Below are positions 31,237-38,627 of a DNA stretch of 49,490 nt, in pieces. The notes beneath the pieces are model-generated. The model made no database searches, was not told the DNA's origin, and was given only the letters and a program-made list of their open reading frames with translations. A program made the translations under genes and the position numbers. Positions within the stretch are counted from its first letter, which is position 1. Each line of letters opens with the position of its first letter. The stretch spans positions 1 to 49,490 of the forward strand of contig JAKORG010000014.1 of the NCBI GenBank assembly GCA_029777945.1, given 5' to 3'. Source of the DNA: Deltaproteobacteria bacterium (GTDB lineage Bacteria; Desulfobacterota; Syntrophorhabdia; Syntrophorhabdales; Syntrophorhabdaceae).

Positions 31237-31260
31237 TTATGCATGAGAGGAGATTATTTA

Positions 31261-31560
31261 TTGTATTTAAAAGTAGGCGATTATGTTTTTCATAAGCATT
31301 ACAAGAGATGGGGCATTGGCGTTGTTGTTGAGGAAAGAAGATCAGAGCTTCCAGGAGGTTTTTGCTATGTTCGTGTGGATTTCGAAGATGGTAAAACAAG
31401 GGTCTTTGATAACAATTTCAGGAGTAATGGATGTTGCTACTATGCTGGTATTGAAAAGATAGATATTCCTATTGAAACAAAGGAAAAGAAAGAAAAAGAG
31501 ATAAAGATAAAGATAAGAAGGATAGATAAAGGCAATAACAAGAGGTTAAAAGGCAAATAA
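31261..31560 (+). CDS. DUF3553-like small basic protein
   Basis: About 99 residues. The N-terminal half (LKVGDYVFHKHYKRWGIGVV..., FCYVRVDFEDGKTRVFD) resembles the DUF3553/CarD-like beta-barrel segment found alone or in helicases; the C-terminal 35 residues are a Lys/Glu/Arg-rich tail that could contact nucleic acid. An ATG at 31243 is open, but AGAGGAG (31245-31251) lies 9 bp before TTG 31261 and would be inside the longer frame, so I prefer TTG. It ends 2 bp before selD and is probably cotranscribed with it. Function unknown. Confidence 0.6.
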   Translation: MYLKVGDYVFHKHYKRWGIGVVVEERRSELPGGFCYVRVDFEDGKTRVFDNNFRSNGCCYYAGIEKIDIPIETKEKKEKEIKIKIRRIDKGNNKRLKGK

Positions 31561-31562
31561 TA

Positions 31563-32588
31563 ATGGAAGATATTAAACTCACAAAATATGTAAAAGGCGC
31601 AGGGTGAGCGTCTAAAATAGGTCCGGGTGACCTTTCAAATATACTCTGCGGAATCAATATACCCACTGATGAAAATGTCATTGTGGGTATAGAGGGATTT
31701 GAGGATGCAGGTGTATATAAGATAAACGAAGAGATGGCAATCGTCCAGACTGTTGATTTCTTCACACCTATTGTAAACGATCCATACGCATTCGGTCAAA
31801 TTGCCGCTACAAATGCATTAAGCGATATATATGCCATGGGGGCAACCCCAAAAATTGCATTAAACATCGTCTGTTTTTCAGTAAAAACATTCGGTGCCCA
31901 TGTCTTAAAAGAAATATTAAGAGGTGGTATGGATAAAATAAGTGAGGCAGGTGTCTCTCTGCTTGGAGGGCATAGTGTGGAAGATGAAGAAATAAAATAC
32001 GGCCTATGCGTAACAGGTTTTGTCCATCCAGATAAAATAATTAGAAACGAGGGGGCATATCCTGGTGATTTTTTAATCCTCACAAAACCCCTTGGCACCG
32101 GCATTTTAAATACAGGCATTAAGGCTGATATGCTTGATAAGGATACTATAGAAAATTTGATAGAAGTAATGGCTACTTTAAACAAAAAGGCAGGGGAGGT
32201 AATGAAGACCGTTAGGGTTCATGCTGCCACAGATGTTACAGGTTTTGGTTTAGCAGGTCATTTAAAAGAGATGATAAAGGAGAATATAGGGATTCAGCTA
32301 TTTAGGGACAATTTACCTTATTTTAAAGAGGCTCCAGAGTTGGCAAACATGGGAATACTTCCCGGTGGCCTATACAGGAACCGTGATTTTTATAGTGCTT
32401 ATATAGTTGGAGAAAAATCAGGCTTTATCTATGATTTAATATTCGATCCACAGACATCGGGTGGGTTGTTATTTGCCGTCCATCCAGAAGATCTCCCCTT
32501 GTTTGAAAATAATGCAATTTCTGCAGGACTCAAATACTGGATTATTGGGAAATTTGTAGAAGAACCAAAGGGAAAGATAATTCTTTAA
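31563..32588 (+). CDS. selD: selenide, water dikinase (selenophosphate synthase), selenocysteine-containing
   Basis: SelD makes selenophosphate from selenide and ATP for selenocysteine and selenouridine synthesis. The frame from ATG 31563 runs through an in-frame TGA at 31605-31607 (residue 15) and continues with clear SelD sequence: KLTKYVKGAG-U-ASKIGPGDL, where U is the catalytic Sec/Cys position. Downstream are FEDAGVY, VQTVDFFTPIVNDPY, ATNALSDIYAMGA and the C-terminal TSGGLLFAV. The total is 341 residues, normal for SelD. An ATG at 31683 gives a truncated enzyme lacking the glycine-rich loop and active site, and is not the real start. A hairpin at 31614-31636 is a candidate SECIS. SelA, SelB and tRNA-Sec are not in the window. 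Confidence 0.92.
31614..31636 (+). promoter_or_regulatory. candidate bacterial SECIS hairpin in selD
   Basis: GGTC (31620-31623) and GACC (31629-31632) form a stem around the loop CGGGT, extended by AAA/TTT pairs on the outside across a small bulge. The apical loop is centred 19 nt after the TGA, the spacing expected for SelB-dependent UGA decoding in bacteria. Confidence 0.6.
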
Positions 32589-32644: not shown

Positions 32645-33598
32645 ATGGACACTAAATATAAGGTAATAGTTTTAGTAACGGCAATGGCAGGGTTCCTTTC
32701 TTTAACCAAGTTTGCCGTTGGAATGGCATCCGGTTCAATGGCTGTTATGTCATCTGGTCTTGATAGTCTGCTCGATACGTTCATCTCTGGAATGAATTTT
32801 TTTGCCATTAAAAAGGCGTCAATGCCACCTGATAAAACACACCAATATGGTCATGGAAAGATAGAGAATTTTTCGGCATTAGTAGAATCTTTTATAATAA
32901 CCAGTGCTGGTGTAGTAATCCTTTATAATGCTATATACAGGTTTGTAAAAAACATTCCTGTCAGGTATACAATGCTTGACTTACCGATTATGATTTTTTC
33001 TTTAATTTTTAGTTTTTTCGTTACCTATGTTTTGAAAAGGGCAAGTAAAAAAACAGGTTCAATGGCCTTGAGTGCCGATGCAGCCCACTATGCAAGCGAT
33101 GTATATACAAACTCAGGGGCTATATTGGCCATAATTTTAACCTATTTAACGGGTTATTAATATTTTGATTTTGCCTTTGCTTTAATAATCGGTATTATCA
33201 TCGTCTTTTCTACTTTAAAAATTTTTTTAGAAAGCATCTCAGGCCTCATGGATAAAAGCATTCCAGAGGAAATAGAAGAAAAAATTAAAAAGATGATTGA
33301 GAAATTGCCCTTTCCTTATGCAGGTTTTCATAAACTGAGGACAAGGACTTCAGGAAACAAACATTACATAGATTTTCATCTTTTAGTATGCAGGGAAAGC
33401 GATATAAATAAGGCACACGAAATTGCCGAAAAGCTTGAGGATCAATTAAAAAAAGAAATATCGGGCATAGATGTTACAATACATATAGAACCCTGTAACA
33501 GTGAATGTGATATGACAGAAATTACCTGCAGTTTAAAATTACGGTCGGAAAATAAGAAAGTTTTCAAAAATAATATGGATATTGACTTTAATCCATAA
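32645..33598 (+). pseudogene. cation diffusion facilitator transporter interrupted by in-frame TAA
   Basis: A CDF (ZT_dimer, FieF/MamM-like) metal transporter, 318 codons. The TM domain shows SSGLDSLLDTFISGMNFFA and HQYGHGKIENFSALVES, and AADAAHYASDVYTN-type residues (SADAAHYASDVYTNSGA) of the HxxxD metal site. At 33158-33160 a TAA follows LTYLTGY; the same frame continues at once with YFDFAFALIIGIIIVF, the sixth TM helix, and the cytoplasmic dimerisation domain (GFHKLRTRTSGNKHYIDFHL). The break is thus a single nonsense codon, not a frameshift. Without the last helix and cytoplasmic domain the truncated product should be impaired. A recent mutation or a sequencing error are the main explanations; an internal ATG at 33248 would allow a separate soluble domain. 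Confidence 0.8.
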
Positions 33599-34490: not shown

Positions 34491-35651
34491 ATGGCTGGAA
34501 TTCAAAATTTAAAAGGATTGGCTAAAGCCGAAAAGTACTACACAGATTATGGGACAAGGGCTAAAGAGCTAAGGGCTCAGGGCAATAGGGTAATTGGGTA
34601 TATATCTGCCCTTAGTCCCGTTGAGATCTTAACTGCCTCTGGCGTTGTTCCTTTCAGATTAAAAGGTAATGTGGAGGAGGCAATTACAAAAGGCGATGCG
34701 TACATGGAGACTATTGTGTGTCCTTTTGTGCGTAATGTATTTGATTCTGCCATTAAAGGTAAGTTCCATTTCATTGACGGTATGGTATTGCCTCATCAAT
34801 GTGATAGCCTTGACAGGACAAGCGATATCTGGAGGGACTATTTAAATCTATCGTATTTTCATTTTCTCAATGTTCCTCATGTGACAGATGAGCCTTCAAT
34901 TGAGTTTATGAAGGAAATTTTAAGGCTTTTTATTTCAACCATTGAAGATTTCACAGGAAATAAAATTACTGTAGATTCATTGAAAAAGGCAATATCTTTA
35001 CACAATGAAAATAGAAGACTTATGAGAAGTCTTTACGATTTGAGAAAAAGTAATCCACCCCTTATAACTGGCAGTGAGATGATGAAGGTCCTTGTGGCAG
35101 CGATGGGTCTTCCTGTTTATGAATCCATTGAACTAATTAAAGAAATTATTGAGGATGTTAAGGGAAGAAAACCTCTAACAGATGGGCAAAGAAAGAGGAT
35201 AATGTTAATTGGCGACCAAATTGATAGTGTTATTATAACGGATACTATTGAAAAAGCCGGTGCCTATCTTGTTATGGATGATATTTCAATAGGTAGTAAG
35301 ATGTACTGGCAGGATGTAGATGAAGACAAAGAACCTATCCTTGCCCTTGCAGAGCGTTATCTGAGAAAGCTTAAAATACCCACAACCTTTGTGGATACAG
35401 GTGGAACATATGAAGAAAATTTAAATGCAAGATTCGGGCACATGAGAAAATACATAGAAGAATTTAACGTAGAGGGAGCAATACTGTTTATTTACAAATA
35501 TTGTGACCCATACGGTTTTGAGGTTCCGGCAATAAAAAGTTATATAGAAGCAGTAGCCGTTGATGTTCTATATCTTGAAGACGAGTATTCCATTTCGAGC
35601 CTTGCACGAATGAAAACAAGAATAGAAGCTTTTCTTGAAATGATTGCATAA
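34491..35651 (+). CDS. bzdN: class I benzoyl-CoA reductase subunit BzdN (BcrC-like)
   Basis: A 386-residue member of the 2-hydroxyacyl-CoA dehydratase D-component (HgdB) family. Likely cluster cysteines are in ETIVCPFVRNVFDSAIKG and VLPHQCDSLDRTSDIWRDY; IYKYCDPYGFEVPAIKSY near the C-terminus is also typical. As the first of four genes in the order seen for bcrCBAD and bzdNOPQ, it should be half of the catalytic module that reduces benzoyl-CoA to cyclohexadienoyl-CoA. Ribosome-binding site AAAGGAGAGG precedes the ATG. The 386-residue length agrees with BcrC/BzdN. Assignment to benzoyl-CoA rather than a 2-hydroxyacyl-CoA rests on the two small separate ATPases and the adjacent 4-hydroxybenzoyl-CoA reductase. 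Confidence 0.85.
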   Translation: MAGIQNLKGLAKAEKYYTDYGTRAKELRAQGNRVIGYISALSPVEILTASGVVPFRLKGNVEEAITKGDAYMETIVCPFVRNVFDSAIKGKFHFIDGMVLPHQCDSLDRTSDIWRDYLNLSYFHFLNVPHVTDEPSIEFMKEILRLFISTIEDFTGNKITVDSLKKAISLHNENRRLMRSLYDLRKSNPPLITGSEMMKVLVAAMGLPVYESIELIKEIIEDVKGRKPLTDGQRKRIMLIGDQIDSVIITDTIEKAGAYLVMDDISIGSKMYWQDVDEDKEPILALAERYLRKLKIPTTFVDTGGTYEENLNARFGHMRKYIEEFNVEGAILFIYKYCDPYGFEVPAIKSYIEAVAVDVLYLEDEYSISSLARMKTRIEAFLEMIA

Positions 35652-35666
35652 CAAAAGGGAGGATTT

Positions 35667-36998
35667 ATGGCAGAAGAAAAAAAGGGAAGGGCATTAGCAA
35701 CAAAGGCTGCAGCAAGTATACCGAAATTCGTGCGGGGTAATCTCGCTGCAACTATAAAGGCAAAGGAAGAAGGTAAAAAGGTAGCCTATGCATATATCGC
35801 AGATGGTCAGGATGAAATAATGAGGGCAATGGACATTGTTCCTGCATGGGGTGAAAGTTTTGCTGGAGTATGTGCAGCAAAGAGAGACGCAGAGAAGTAT
35901 CTCCAAAAGGCAGAATCGGATAACTTTTCAAGGTCCTTGTGCACATACGCAACATGCACAATAGGCTTTGATATGATAAGGTCAGAGTTGGGTGTAGATA
36001 TTGTACCTGATGCACCCTGGGGAGGCATGGGAAGACCTGACATGATTTTAGGTTCTGCACAGCTTCTCTGTGATCCAAGGTTTAAATGGCCGCAGGCAAC
36101 CCAGCATTACCTAAGGGATGTTCCCATCTTTGTTGGTGCCATGTATTATCCCCCTTTTGATCCAAAACTCAATCATCATGAACAGGAAAAATTTTATGTA
36201 AAATACTGTACAGAAGAGTTAAGGGAATGTGTAAAATTTTGTGAAAAACATACAGGAAAGAAAATGGATTGGGACAGGCTTGCCGAAATAGTGGAGTTAT
36301 CTGATAAAACTTGGGATCTATTTATAGACACATACGAACTCCGTAAGGCAATTCCCACACCAATGGATACAGGAGATGCAATGAATACAATGGTGCCCCT
36401 TACATTTAATTTAGGGACACAGGAGGCCTATGATTTCTATAAGCAGCTCTATGATGAGTTACAGGAAAAAGTAAAGAATAAAGAAGGTGTTGTAGAACCT
36501 GAAAAATATAGGCTTATCTGGGCAGCTGGTTTGCCTTCTTGGTTTGCCCTTGGCGATTTTCAATATTTTAACAGTAAGGGGGCAACATTTCCCGTTGAGG
36601 TAACTTACCGCGGCTGCGAAAAGATTGAGAGGTTAGAATTGCCAAAGACAAGTGATCCCTTAGAACATATTGCCTGGAGATGGGTAAGATACTGGACACA
36701 CTGGTATGATAAGGCAAGAAAGCGTCCTGGTTCGTTACCAAAGGTGGAAAGGATAATAGAATACATAGAGGAGTATAAGTGTGATGGCGTTGTATTCCAT
36801 TCTGCTTTTTCTTGCAGGAGCTGGCATGCAGGTATTATCCATCAAGCAGAGACCTTGAAAAAGGTTTATAAAGAAATCCCCATTTTAATCTTAGAAGGAG
36901 ATATAGTAGATATCAGTTCCTATAATGAAGCAGACACCCATAATAGAATAGATGCATTTATAGAGGCAGTAGACGCATATAAGAGCAGAATGGGATAA
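35667..36998 (+). CDS. bzdO: class I benzoyl-CoA reductase subunit BzdO (BcrB-like)
   Basis: A 443-residue HgdB-family subunit, the second half of the catalytic module. Cys-containing blocks are SLCTYATCTIGFDMIR (about 92-107) and FHSAFSCRSWHAGIIHQ (about 378-394), the latter a family hallmark. GDFQYFNSKGATFPVEVTYRG lies in the substrate half. It begins 15 bp after bzdN with AAAGGGAGG before the ATG and ends 5 bp before bzdP, so all four genes are one transcript. Size and order match BzdO/BcrB. Confidence 0.86.
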   Translation: MAEEKKGRALATKAAASIPKFVRGNLAATIKAKEEGKKVAYAYIADGQDEIMRAMDIVPAWGESFAGVCAAKRDAEKYLQKAESDNFSRSLCTYATCTIGFDMIRSELGVDIVPDAPWGGMGRPDMILGSAQLLCDPRFKWPQATQHYLRDVPIFVGAMYYPPFDPKLNHHEQEKFYVKYCTEELRECVKFCEKHTGKKMDWDRLAEIVELSDKTWDLFIDTYELRKAIPTPMDTGDAMNTMVPLTFNLGTQEAYDFYKQLYDELQEKVKNKEGVVEPEKYRLIWAAGLPSWFALGDFQYFNSKGATFPVEVTYRGCEKIERLELPKTSDPLEHIAWRWVRYWTHWYDKARKRPGSLPKVERIIEYIEEYKCDGVVFHSAFSCRSWHAGIIHQAETLKKVYKEIPILILEGDIVDISSYNEADTHNRIDAFIEAVDAYKSRMG

Positions 36999-37003
36999 AA
37001 ATC

Positions 37004-37846
37004 ATGAAGAGATATTTTGCCGGTGTAGATATAGGCTCCACAATGACAAAGGTGGTTATATTCAGTGACAGAATAGAGGCCACCATTATAGGTCCCACAG
37101 GCCCTGAACACCGGAAATTGGCAAACAAAGTAATGGAGGAGGCTCTGAATCTGGCTCAAATCAGATTTGAAAATCTGTCCTATATCATTGCCACGGGGTA
37201 TGGGAGAATCAATGTGCCCTTTGCAGACAGGCAAATCACAGAGATTACCTGTCATGCAAAAGGGTTACATAGCCTCCTCCCAACTGTAAAGACCATTGTG
37301 GATATAGGTGGTCAGGACAGTAAGGGTATTAAGATTAAAGACGGTAAGGTAGTGAGTTTTGTCATGAACGATAAGTGTGCTGCAGGGACAGGACGGTTTA
37401 TTGAGATTATGGCAGATTCCATAGGAGTTCCATTAGAAGATATGGGTATAATATCCCTTACTGCCGAAAAAGCAGCCCCCATCAGTAGCACATGCACCGT
37501 ATTTGCAGAACATGAAATTATAAATAAACTTGCCAGTGGAGAGACAATTCCAAACCTTATTGCAGGCATCCATGAATCTGTGGCAACCCGTGTAAGCGCT
37601 ATGGTTAAAAAGCTCACAATTGAGCAGGATGTTGCCGTAACCGGTGGAGGTGCAAAAAATATAGGGCTTGTTAAGGCATTGGAAAAAAAATTAGGATGCT
37701 CTATCATCGTTCCACCTGAACCTTTAATAACCGGTGCCCTTGGTGCTTCGGTTTTGGCAAAAGAGATATTTGAAAAATACGAAAGGGAAGGTCAAATGCC
37801 TGTAAGAAGTTCTTGCGGTTTGCAGGAAGCAAAAATTTTTTCATAA
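37004..37846 (+). CDS. bzdP: class I benzoyl-CoA reductase ATPase subunit BzdP
   Basis: A 280-residue BadF/BadG/BcrA/BcrD ATPase. ADIGSTMTKVVIF-type phosphate motif (GVDIGSTMTKVVIF), VDIGGQDSKGIKI, and NDKCAAGTGRFIEIMA with Cys125, paired with Cys164 in SSTCTVFAEHE, for a [4Fe-4S] cluster shared at the ATPase dimer interface; VTGGGAKNIGLVKALE closes the fold. It hydrolyses ATP to push ferredoxin electrons onto the BzdNO module. The length (280) fits the bzd type; the Thauera-type BcrA is much longer. Confidence 0.86.
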   Translation: MKRYFAGVDIGSTMTKVVIFSDRIEATIIGPTGPEHRKLANKVMEEALNLAQIRFENLSYIIATGYGRINVPFADRQITEITCHAKGLHSLLPTVKTIVDIGGQDSKGIKIKDGKVVSFVMNDKCAAGTGRFIEIMADSIGVPLEDMGIISLTAEKAAPISSTCTVFAEHEIINKLASGETIPNLIAGIHESVATRVSAMVKKLTIEQDVAVTGGGAKNIGLVKALEKKLGCSIIVPPEPLITGALGASVLAKEIFEKYEREGQMPVRSSCGLQEAKIFS

Positions 37847-37856
37847 AAGGTGAGAT

Positions 37857-38627
37857 ATGGCGTTTTTTCTTGGAATTGACGTAGGTTCAGGATGGACAAA
37901 GGCTGCAATCTGTGAGGATAATGAGCTTAAGTCTTATGCAATAGTACCATCTGGAGGAGATTATAAGAAGGCTGCGAAGGAAGCAACTAACCTTGCCTTA
38001 AAAAAATTAAACCTTTCAGTAAAGGATATAAAATGCACAGTAGCAACAGGATATGGTGCCACAATGGCTGATTTTGCCAATGATGTTATATCTGATATTT
38101 CATGTCATGCAAAGGGTATAAGCGTATTATTTTCAAATGTAAGAACCGTTATTGACATAGGTGCCCAGTTTACGAGGGCAATCACAATAGATAACGATGG
38201 AAGGATCATAAATTTTATTATGAACGAGAAGTGCGCAGGTGGAAGTGGGAAATTTTTACAGGTTACTGCGAGGATACTCCATGTTAATATAGAAGAATTG
38301 GGTAGATTGTCCCTTGAATCAAAAAAACCAGTTGAATTTACTACAGCATGCGCTGTTTTTGCAGAATCAGAGGCTATATCGAGGATATCAGAAGGTGCTA
38401 GGCCAGAAGATATAGTAGCAGGTATACATAAGGCAATGGCTTCAAAGATTATGACCCTTGTAACACGGGTAGGTATGAACCCTGACTACGCCGTAACTGG
38501 TGGAGGTGGGAAAGATATTGGGCTTGTTAAGGCTATTGATAATGAGCTTAGATCAAAGGCTTATATACCATATGAACCTCAGATAACTGCTGCATTGGGT
38601 GCTGCCATATTTGCCAGTTCTAAGTAG
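37857..38627 (+). CDS. bzdQ: class I benzoyl-CoA reductase ATPase subunit BzdQ
   Basis: A 256-residue partner ATPase. GIDVGSGWTKAAIC, VIDIGAQFTRAITI (with Gln/Phe replacing the GGQDSK block), and NEKCAGGSGKFLQVTARIL with Cys126, paired with Cys165 in ACAVFAESEAISRI; VTGGGGKDIGLVKAID is near the end. The CAGGSG variant and ACAVFAESE are typical of the BcrD/BzdQ branch rather than of HgdC. It would form the heterodimeric electron activase with BzdP, which overlaps functionally with but differs from the giant activase at 11.1 kb. Last gene of the operon; 10 bp from bzdP. Confidence 0.86.
   Translation: MAFFLGIDVGSGWTKAAICEDNELKSYAIVPSGGDYKKAAKEATNLALKKLNLSVKDIKCTVATGYGATMADFANDVISDISCHAKGISVLFSNVRTVIDIGAQFTRAITIDNDGRIINFIMNEKCAGGSGKFLQVTARILHVNIEELGRLSLESKKPVEFTTACAVFAESEAISRISEGARPEDIVAGIHKAMASKIMTLVTRVGMNPDYAVTGGGGKDIGLVKAIDNELRSKAYIPYEPQITAALGAAIFASSK

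Follow-up and report, generated by a model that had tools for sequence, protein, structure and literature searches.

A selenophosphate synthetase gene with a predicted selenocysteine codon and a second, cysteine-encoding copy in a Syntrophorhabdales-like genome

Introduction

SelD makes selenophosphate, SelA uses it in charging tRNA-Sec, and SelB carries the resulting Sec-tRNA to UGA codons. The catalytic residue of SelD lies in an N-terminal loop and is either Cys or Sec, with a Lys three residues later. A SelD that itself contains Sec is caught in a circular dependence, since Sec needs selenophosphate, which is SelD's own product. Here we ask whether a selD gene interrupted by a UGA codon encodes such an enzyme, and how the genome that carries it might cope with that dependence.

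The gene lies in a window of 49,490 nucleotides, the whole stretch of DNA that was analysed. The window belongs to a draft genome (G000) of 2.40 Mb in 102 contigs, 97.45% complete and 2.31% contaminated. The closest named records of its SelD (63-79% identity) are MAGs labelled Syntrophorhabdales, Syntrophorhabdus, Syntrophus or Deltaproteobacteria, and the kinship of the genome is Syntrophorhabdales-like.

Results

The selD frame continues through a UGA at the catalytic position

The selD gene extends on the forward strand from an ATG at 31563 to 32588, including the stop codon at 32586-32588, and encodes 341 residues when the TGA at 31605-31607 is read as Sec. A first, sequence-only reading of the window had proposed that this frame runs through a TGA at the catalytic Cys/Sec position. 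The read-through product bears this out, matching the TIGR00476 selD profile with 382.7 bits (cut-off 125) over profile positions 1-310 of 311. Alignment places the UGA-encoded residue 15 opposite the Cys of the solved SelD chains 2yye and 3u0o, and Lys18 opposite the Lys of both (local sequence U15-A-S-K18). The codon at the catalytic site is TGA in 51, TGC in 24 and TGT in 10 of 85 aligned SelD rows, and never another; these rows come from fetched loci, and some represent the same gene fetched twice. Two further rows (L090 and L055) have alignments that fall short of the catalytic codon. The presence of TGA in 35 of 35 rows classed as Sec was set aside as circular evidence, that codon having defined the class.

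A mechanical list of open reading frames opens selD at a GTG at 31683 and gives the gene as 31683-32588. The expectation that standard calling would begin there and drop the active site was thus correct, and annotation of this genome would miss the active site of SelD because standard gene calling truncates the gene. Taken at face value, the listed frame favours reading the UGA as a true stop, so that the N-terminus is lost and what remains is either a truncated SelD made from 31683 or a pseudogene. We give this next to no credence: the flanks of the UGA are conserved on both sides, the 85 rows show nothing except TGA or Cys codons at the site, the codons of a hairpin behind the UGA are almost fixed (see below), and the genome holds Sec machinery, whereas a protein begun at 31683 would lack both the catalytic residue and its loop.

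The genome carries the genes for Sec decoding and for other selenoproteins

The machinery genes lie on other contigs of G000. The tRNA-Sec gene selC was found on contig 32 (73375-73466; 69.9 bits, cut-off 47) and confirmed by ARAGORN with anticodon tca, selB on contig 31 (359.4 bits, cut-off 242.25) and selA on contig 93 (588.9 bits, cut-off 267.9). Hence all three parts of the predicted SelA/SelB/tRNA-Sec system have a gene here, and selB and tRNA-Sec, on whose presence the first reading had been staked, are both in the draft. Further selenoproteins, likewise foreseen, appear as genes with UGA at known Sec sites: the formate dehydrogenase alpha subunit FdhA on contig 52 (in-frame TGA, HCARLUHSS), and HdrA (NDCSMU) and MvhD (CNWUAYG), adjacent on contig 67. 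Together these genes support the reading of SelD as a putative selenoprotein decoded by the bacterial Sec system.

A hairpin behind the UGA is conserved through codon choice

A hairpin of the bacterial SECIS type, AGGUC-CGGGU-GACCU, occupies 31619-31633 on the forward strand, with a stem of 5 bp and the loop CGGGU at 31624-31628. Its loop begins 16 nt after the UGA; the sequence-only reading had placed a candidate SECIS loop 19 nt downstream, which fits this hairpin when counting from the U of UGA. The bacterial SECIS model, as given in the available text of its source, has an apical loop of 3-9 nt, an upper stem of 4-16 bp, a G within the first two loop positions, a UGA-to-loop distance of 16-37 nt and a minimum free energy of -7.5 kcal/mol or lower (PMC13188914). 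Against those published limits, the loop of 5 nt, the stem of 5 bp and the G at position 2 lie within range, the spacing of 16 nt equals the lower limit, and the energy of -7.4 kcal/mol over 46 nt is just short of the required value (PMC13188914). The energy varies with the stretch folded (-7.4 kcal/mol over 46 and 56 nt, -5.1 over 37 nt and -10.7 over 71 nt).

Folding the mRNA, a check that the first reading had suggested, recovers the hairpin and gives it no unusual stability. Over 46 nt the energy is ordinary relative to shuffled sequences (z -0.15, with 86 of 200 shuffles equally good), other folded stretches gave z values of -0.30, +0.62 and +0.95, and the bare hairpin gave -0.97. Over the same 46 nt, z was -0.15, -1.44 and -0.81 in three Sec genes and +0.39 and +1.63 in two Cys genes. 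Since these values are ordinary, folding energy was discarded as support for the hairpin. A scan of the window against Rfam at gathering scores gave no matches.

Conservation gives a different picture. We compared the occurrence of the full five-pair stem with the number expected when random synonymous codons are drawn from each gene's own codon usage. The full stem is present in 34 of the 35 Sec-SelD genes of the order, where 3.21 were expected (sd 1.67), and in one of six Cys-SelD genes of the order (0.26 expected). Among eight Sec-SelD genes from outside the order two have it complete (0.24 expected), which makes this precise stem a local feature; more distant Cys genes (0 of 22) are uninformative on the stem, as the expectation is only 0.02. 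Leaving aside Met and Trp, 108 residues never vary among the 35 Sec genes, and codon fixation was ranked over these. The most fixed codons after the TGA are GGT20 (0.97), GAC23 (0.97) and CCG21 (0.94), all within the hairpin, with medians of 0.37 for Gly, 0.63 for Asp and 0.57 for Pro. The hairpin Gly codon is GGT in 34 of 35 genes, as against 313 of 1243 Gly codons elsewhere. Because the genes are related, these stem and codon counts are to be read as contrasts and not as probabilities.

Four rows were left out of both the stem and codon-choice count and the tree described below, namely the cut duplicates L105, L163 and L167, and L090, which has an assembly gap. L052 was additionally left out of the tree, and the count is also without L026, L095, L122, L166, L038, L039, L051, L053 and L055. 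L026 entered only for the tree, so the count has six and not seven Cys genes of the order. The genome behind L025 (Syntrophorhabdus sp. PtaU1.Bin058, G054) and G050 were counted once, since their SelD matches are equal.

Could the hairpin be an idle by-product of the conserved peptide IGPGDL, with Sec inserted by way of another structure or none? Its ordinary energy would fit, as would the lack of compensatory changes (0 of 5 stem pairs, 26 rows), which leaves codon choice, rather than covariation, as the backing for the pairing, and the missing full stem in 6 of the 8 more distant Sec-SelD genes. However, most Cys genes of the order carry an identical or almost identical peptide written in other codons, and five of the six do so without the full stem; the excess of full stems over random synonymous codons among the 35 Sec genes, related rows though they are, and the exceptional fixation of the hairpin Gly, Pro and Asp codons also go against it. 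We therefore hold the by-product explanation to be very unlikely, and take the hairpin, on the conservation of its codons and not on folding energy, to be more than chance.

With the UGA, the hairpin and the machinery taken together, 31563-32588 very probably encodes SelD with a catalytic Sec whose UGA is decoded through SelB and the hairpin at 31619-31633. SelB bound to that hairpin would bring Sec-tRNA to the UGA at 31605, and SelA would charge tRNA-Sec with selenophosphate supplied by SelD, which would thus feed its own synthesis. Sec insertion, SelB binding and enzyme activity are properties that we infer for this SelD from its sequence.

Sec-SelD is the rule in the order

Among 46 genomes of the order searched, a SelD match with one TGA occurs in 41 and a Cys SelD in seven; the TGA was placed at the catalytic site only for rows with a fetched locus. 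Both forms occur in six genomes (G000, G018, G021, G023, G031 and G050). G029, which is 79% complete, has Cys SelD alone, G047 has a SelD fragment without the site, and in this search no SelD match was found in G024, G027 and G040. The SelD row of G004 that is listed without a stop begins past the site, and the actual codon there is TGA. Sec-SelD is therefore the rule in the order. Three genomes (G004, G008 and G017) carry, besides the usual Sec-SelD, a diverged second paralogue in which the site is TGA and lies in the motif GAGUASKLGPGD (L060, L061 and L062).

Co-occurrence of SelD, selB and selC was also tabulated for 40 genomes and rejected as evidence, being non-discriminating, as draft assemblies miss genes in both directions. 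At E<=1e-60 selB was not found in six of the 40 (G004, G005, G007, G019, G020 and G035); at E<=1e-9, with at most 80 candidates scored per genome, selC was not found in six (G005, G008, G027, G029, G031 and G035). G005 has a SelD match with TGA, yet neither selB nor selC was found in it, a gap perhaps due to the draft assembly. Conversely, G024, G027 and G034 have selB and no SelD above the cut-off.

The Sec-SelD of the window is ordinary for its lineage and belongs to an already known type. In the available text of the surveys concerned, many Deltaproteobacteria are listed with a Sec-SelD (PMC1794560), and in a reference set of prokaryotes 19% of the SelD genes have Sec (PMC4561486). The bacterial Sec-SelD proteins described there likewise have Sec at the catalytic position, and in Syntrophobacter and Syntrophus Sec-SelD occurs alongside FdhA, FrhD (MvhD-like) and HdrA selenoproteins, as it does here (PMC1794560, PMC4561486). 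As far as those texts describe them, G000 differs only by its lineage and by an extra Cys copy.

A second SelD with Cys adjoins other Cys forms of selenoproteins

This extra copy is a second SelD at 12966-14012 on contig 81 of G000, with TGC at the catalytic site (FGGCAAKIGPGD). It lies directly behind an HdrA-MvhD fusion that has Cys at both Sec positions (NDCSMC and CNWCCYG), so that G000 contains Cys paralogues of several selenoproteins, namely HdrA, MvhD and SelD. Cys HdrA and Cys MvhD adjoin the Cys SelD in four of the seven genomes (G000, G021, G023 and G050), three relatives having the gene order Cys HdrA, Cys MvhD, Cys SelD. The same four genomes also have a UGA-containing MvhD. In G000, G021 and G023 a UGA-HdrA adjoins it, and for G050 the HdrA match, taken from the duplicate G054, starts past the Sec site. 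In G021 a Cys formate dehydrogenase (HCARVCH) precedes the Cys HdrA and is 48% identical to the Sec FdhA of G000 over 695 aligned positions. On contig 5 of G023 a second SelB lies ahead of the Cys HdrA-MvhD-SelD genes (L095, 513-2468, forward strand). Two selB matches were also seen in G012, G025 and G036. No HdrA or MvhD was found in the fetched flanks of the Cys SelD of G018, G029 and G031 (L092, L096 and L100), nor beside Sec SelD at any of 19 loci, fetched flanks being of varying length.

The seven Cys SelD retain 104 to 107 of the 110 residues invariant in 35 Sec copies, and hence look like working enzymes. In a tree with the site masked, the Cys SelD of G000, G021, G023, G050 and G031 form one clade (100/97) among Sec copies, and those of G018 and G029 stand separately; the G029 branch is one of several long ones. 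The tree suggests three Sec-to-Cys changes in the order, the direction being read from the nesting. The pairing of Cys with Sec copies likewise suggests that conversion to Cys was repeated, with the Sec copy retained in six of the seven genomes. With a second, Cys SelD in G000, the Sec copy may not be the sole source of selenophosphate. Most genomes of the order lack a Cys copy, so a Cys SelD is not indispensable.

We considered whether contig 81 is an assembly contaminant, foreign to the organism. The 14-kb stretch with the cassette has a GC content of 0.424, higher than in any of seven other G000 stretches (0.357-0.405), a genome of the same genus (G001, 90% complete) lacks a Cys SelD, and contamination is estimated at 2.31%. 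Tetranucleotide correlation with the window is 0.67, 0.77 and 0.70 for the other three stretches of contig 81, two of which thus lie slightly below the 0.71-0.87 of other contigs. However, those three stretches have a GC content of 0.360-0.388, like the rest of the genome, and the cassette itself correlates with the window at 0.74, within the 0.71-0.87 of six other G000 stretches and above seven stretches of relatives (0.39-0.67). Furthermore, five more genomes of the order carry Cys and Sec SelD together. Contamination is in our judgement unlikely, and we take the cassette as native to G000, a working assumption based on composition and gene content and short of proof.

Discussion

What might a Cys SelD do in a genome whose other SelD probably contains Sec? 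We see about an even chance, judged by gene content alone, that it is a member of a backup set for selenium scarcity. Such an enzyme could restart selenophosphate synthesis without Sec. The more specific proposal of an all-Cys operon in which SelD is itself one of the backup isoforms, and in which a selenium-responsive Cys SelD breaks the circular dependence, also comes from gene content and is offered tentatively, as something we would sooner doubt than assert. If it is true, the Cys SelD would let the cell resume selenoprotein synthesis after selenium starvation. A Sec-SelD paired with a Cys copy and Cys isoforms makes a concrete test case for the circular dependence of SelD.

The Cys copy may instead serve another trait, such as selenouridine, a selenium-dependent molybdenum hydroxylase or sulfur chemistry of HdrA-MvhD. 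This is possible though not the likelier course. It would suit the three of seven Cys SelD that have neither HdrA nor MvhD in the fetched flank, the HGD-D genes close to several Cys copies (L089, L095 and L100) and the precedent of Photobacterium profundum, whose Cys SelD adjoins ybbB in the accessible text (PMC1273633). HGD-D genes may simply be common in the group, and they also occur within the window. Against another trait, four genomes pair the Cys SelD with Cys HdrA and Cys MvhD, both from known selenoprotein families, and one of the four pairs it also with Cys FdhA, from a further such family.

Known systems offer partial parallels to a Cys SelD in a backup set. P. profundum, which a 2005 report gave as the only prokaryotic genome carrying two selD genes and which is the sole explicit case found in our literature search, has one Sec and one Cys SelD, as does G000; in the available part of that report, the Cys selD is beside ybbB and placed as the species tree expects, and the Sec selD is beside selAB and taken as horizontally acquired (PMC1273633). 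Here, in contrast to what that text describes, the Cys copies nest among Sec copies of the same order, and four of seven stand beside Cys HdrA and MvhD. The Sec/Cys switch of Methanococcus maripaludis pairs a Sec with a Cys form of both HdrA and the MvhD-like VhuD, as here; the text available lists five selenoproteins with Cys forms and counts SPS as a further selenoprotein, of which it mentions no Cys form (PMC11097638). In the present genomes, unlike that account, SelD falls by gene content within the Cys set. Our search, which lay mostly outside subscription papers, did not turn up a published Cys SelD adjoining Cys HdrA-MvhD. A Cys SelD kept beside other Cys selenoprotein copies is less ordinary than Sec-SelD itself.

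Neighbouring genes

Upstream of selD, 31243-31560 on the forward strand encodes a small SH3/CarD-like protein of 105 residues, which is conserved upstream of Sec-selD in the order. Two nucleotides separate its stop from the selD start. Across 27 rows the protein shows a conserved core in which the motif CCYY never varies. Of 36 Sec-SelD rows from the order, 32 have a homologue upstream of selD, and none of six Cys SelD genes does; of the four misses, one is cut by a contig end and three concern the second Sec paralogue. In G025, G029 and G031 it lies on a different contig from SelD. Its structural model is an SH3-like barrel (mean pLDDT 74) that resembles RapA, CarD and the UvrD Tudor domain with Z <7, a resemblance that may reflect a common fold only. 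Pfam CarD_TRCF_RID stayed under the cut-off for this protein, and NCBIfam gave no match.

Downstream of selD, a gene for a CDF (cation efflux) transporter spans 32645-33598 on the forward strand and contains an in-frame TAA (33158-33160) that separates its Cation_efflux match from its ZT_dimer match. We considered it as a second read-through gene and rejected this, the in-frame stop being TAA and not TGA. Copies next to selD in relatives are intact, and the gene in the window is either broken or marred by an assembly error. Further along, 34491-38627 on the forward strand holds two HGD-D proteins and two BcrAD/BadFG ATPases in succession, presumably a cluster for a 2-hydroxyacyl-CoA dehydratase or a class I benzoyl-CoA reductase.
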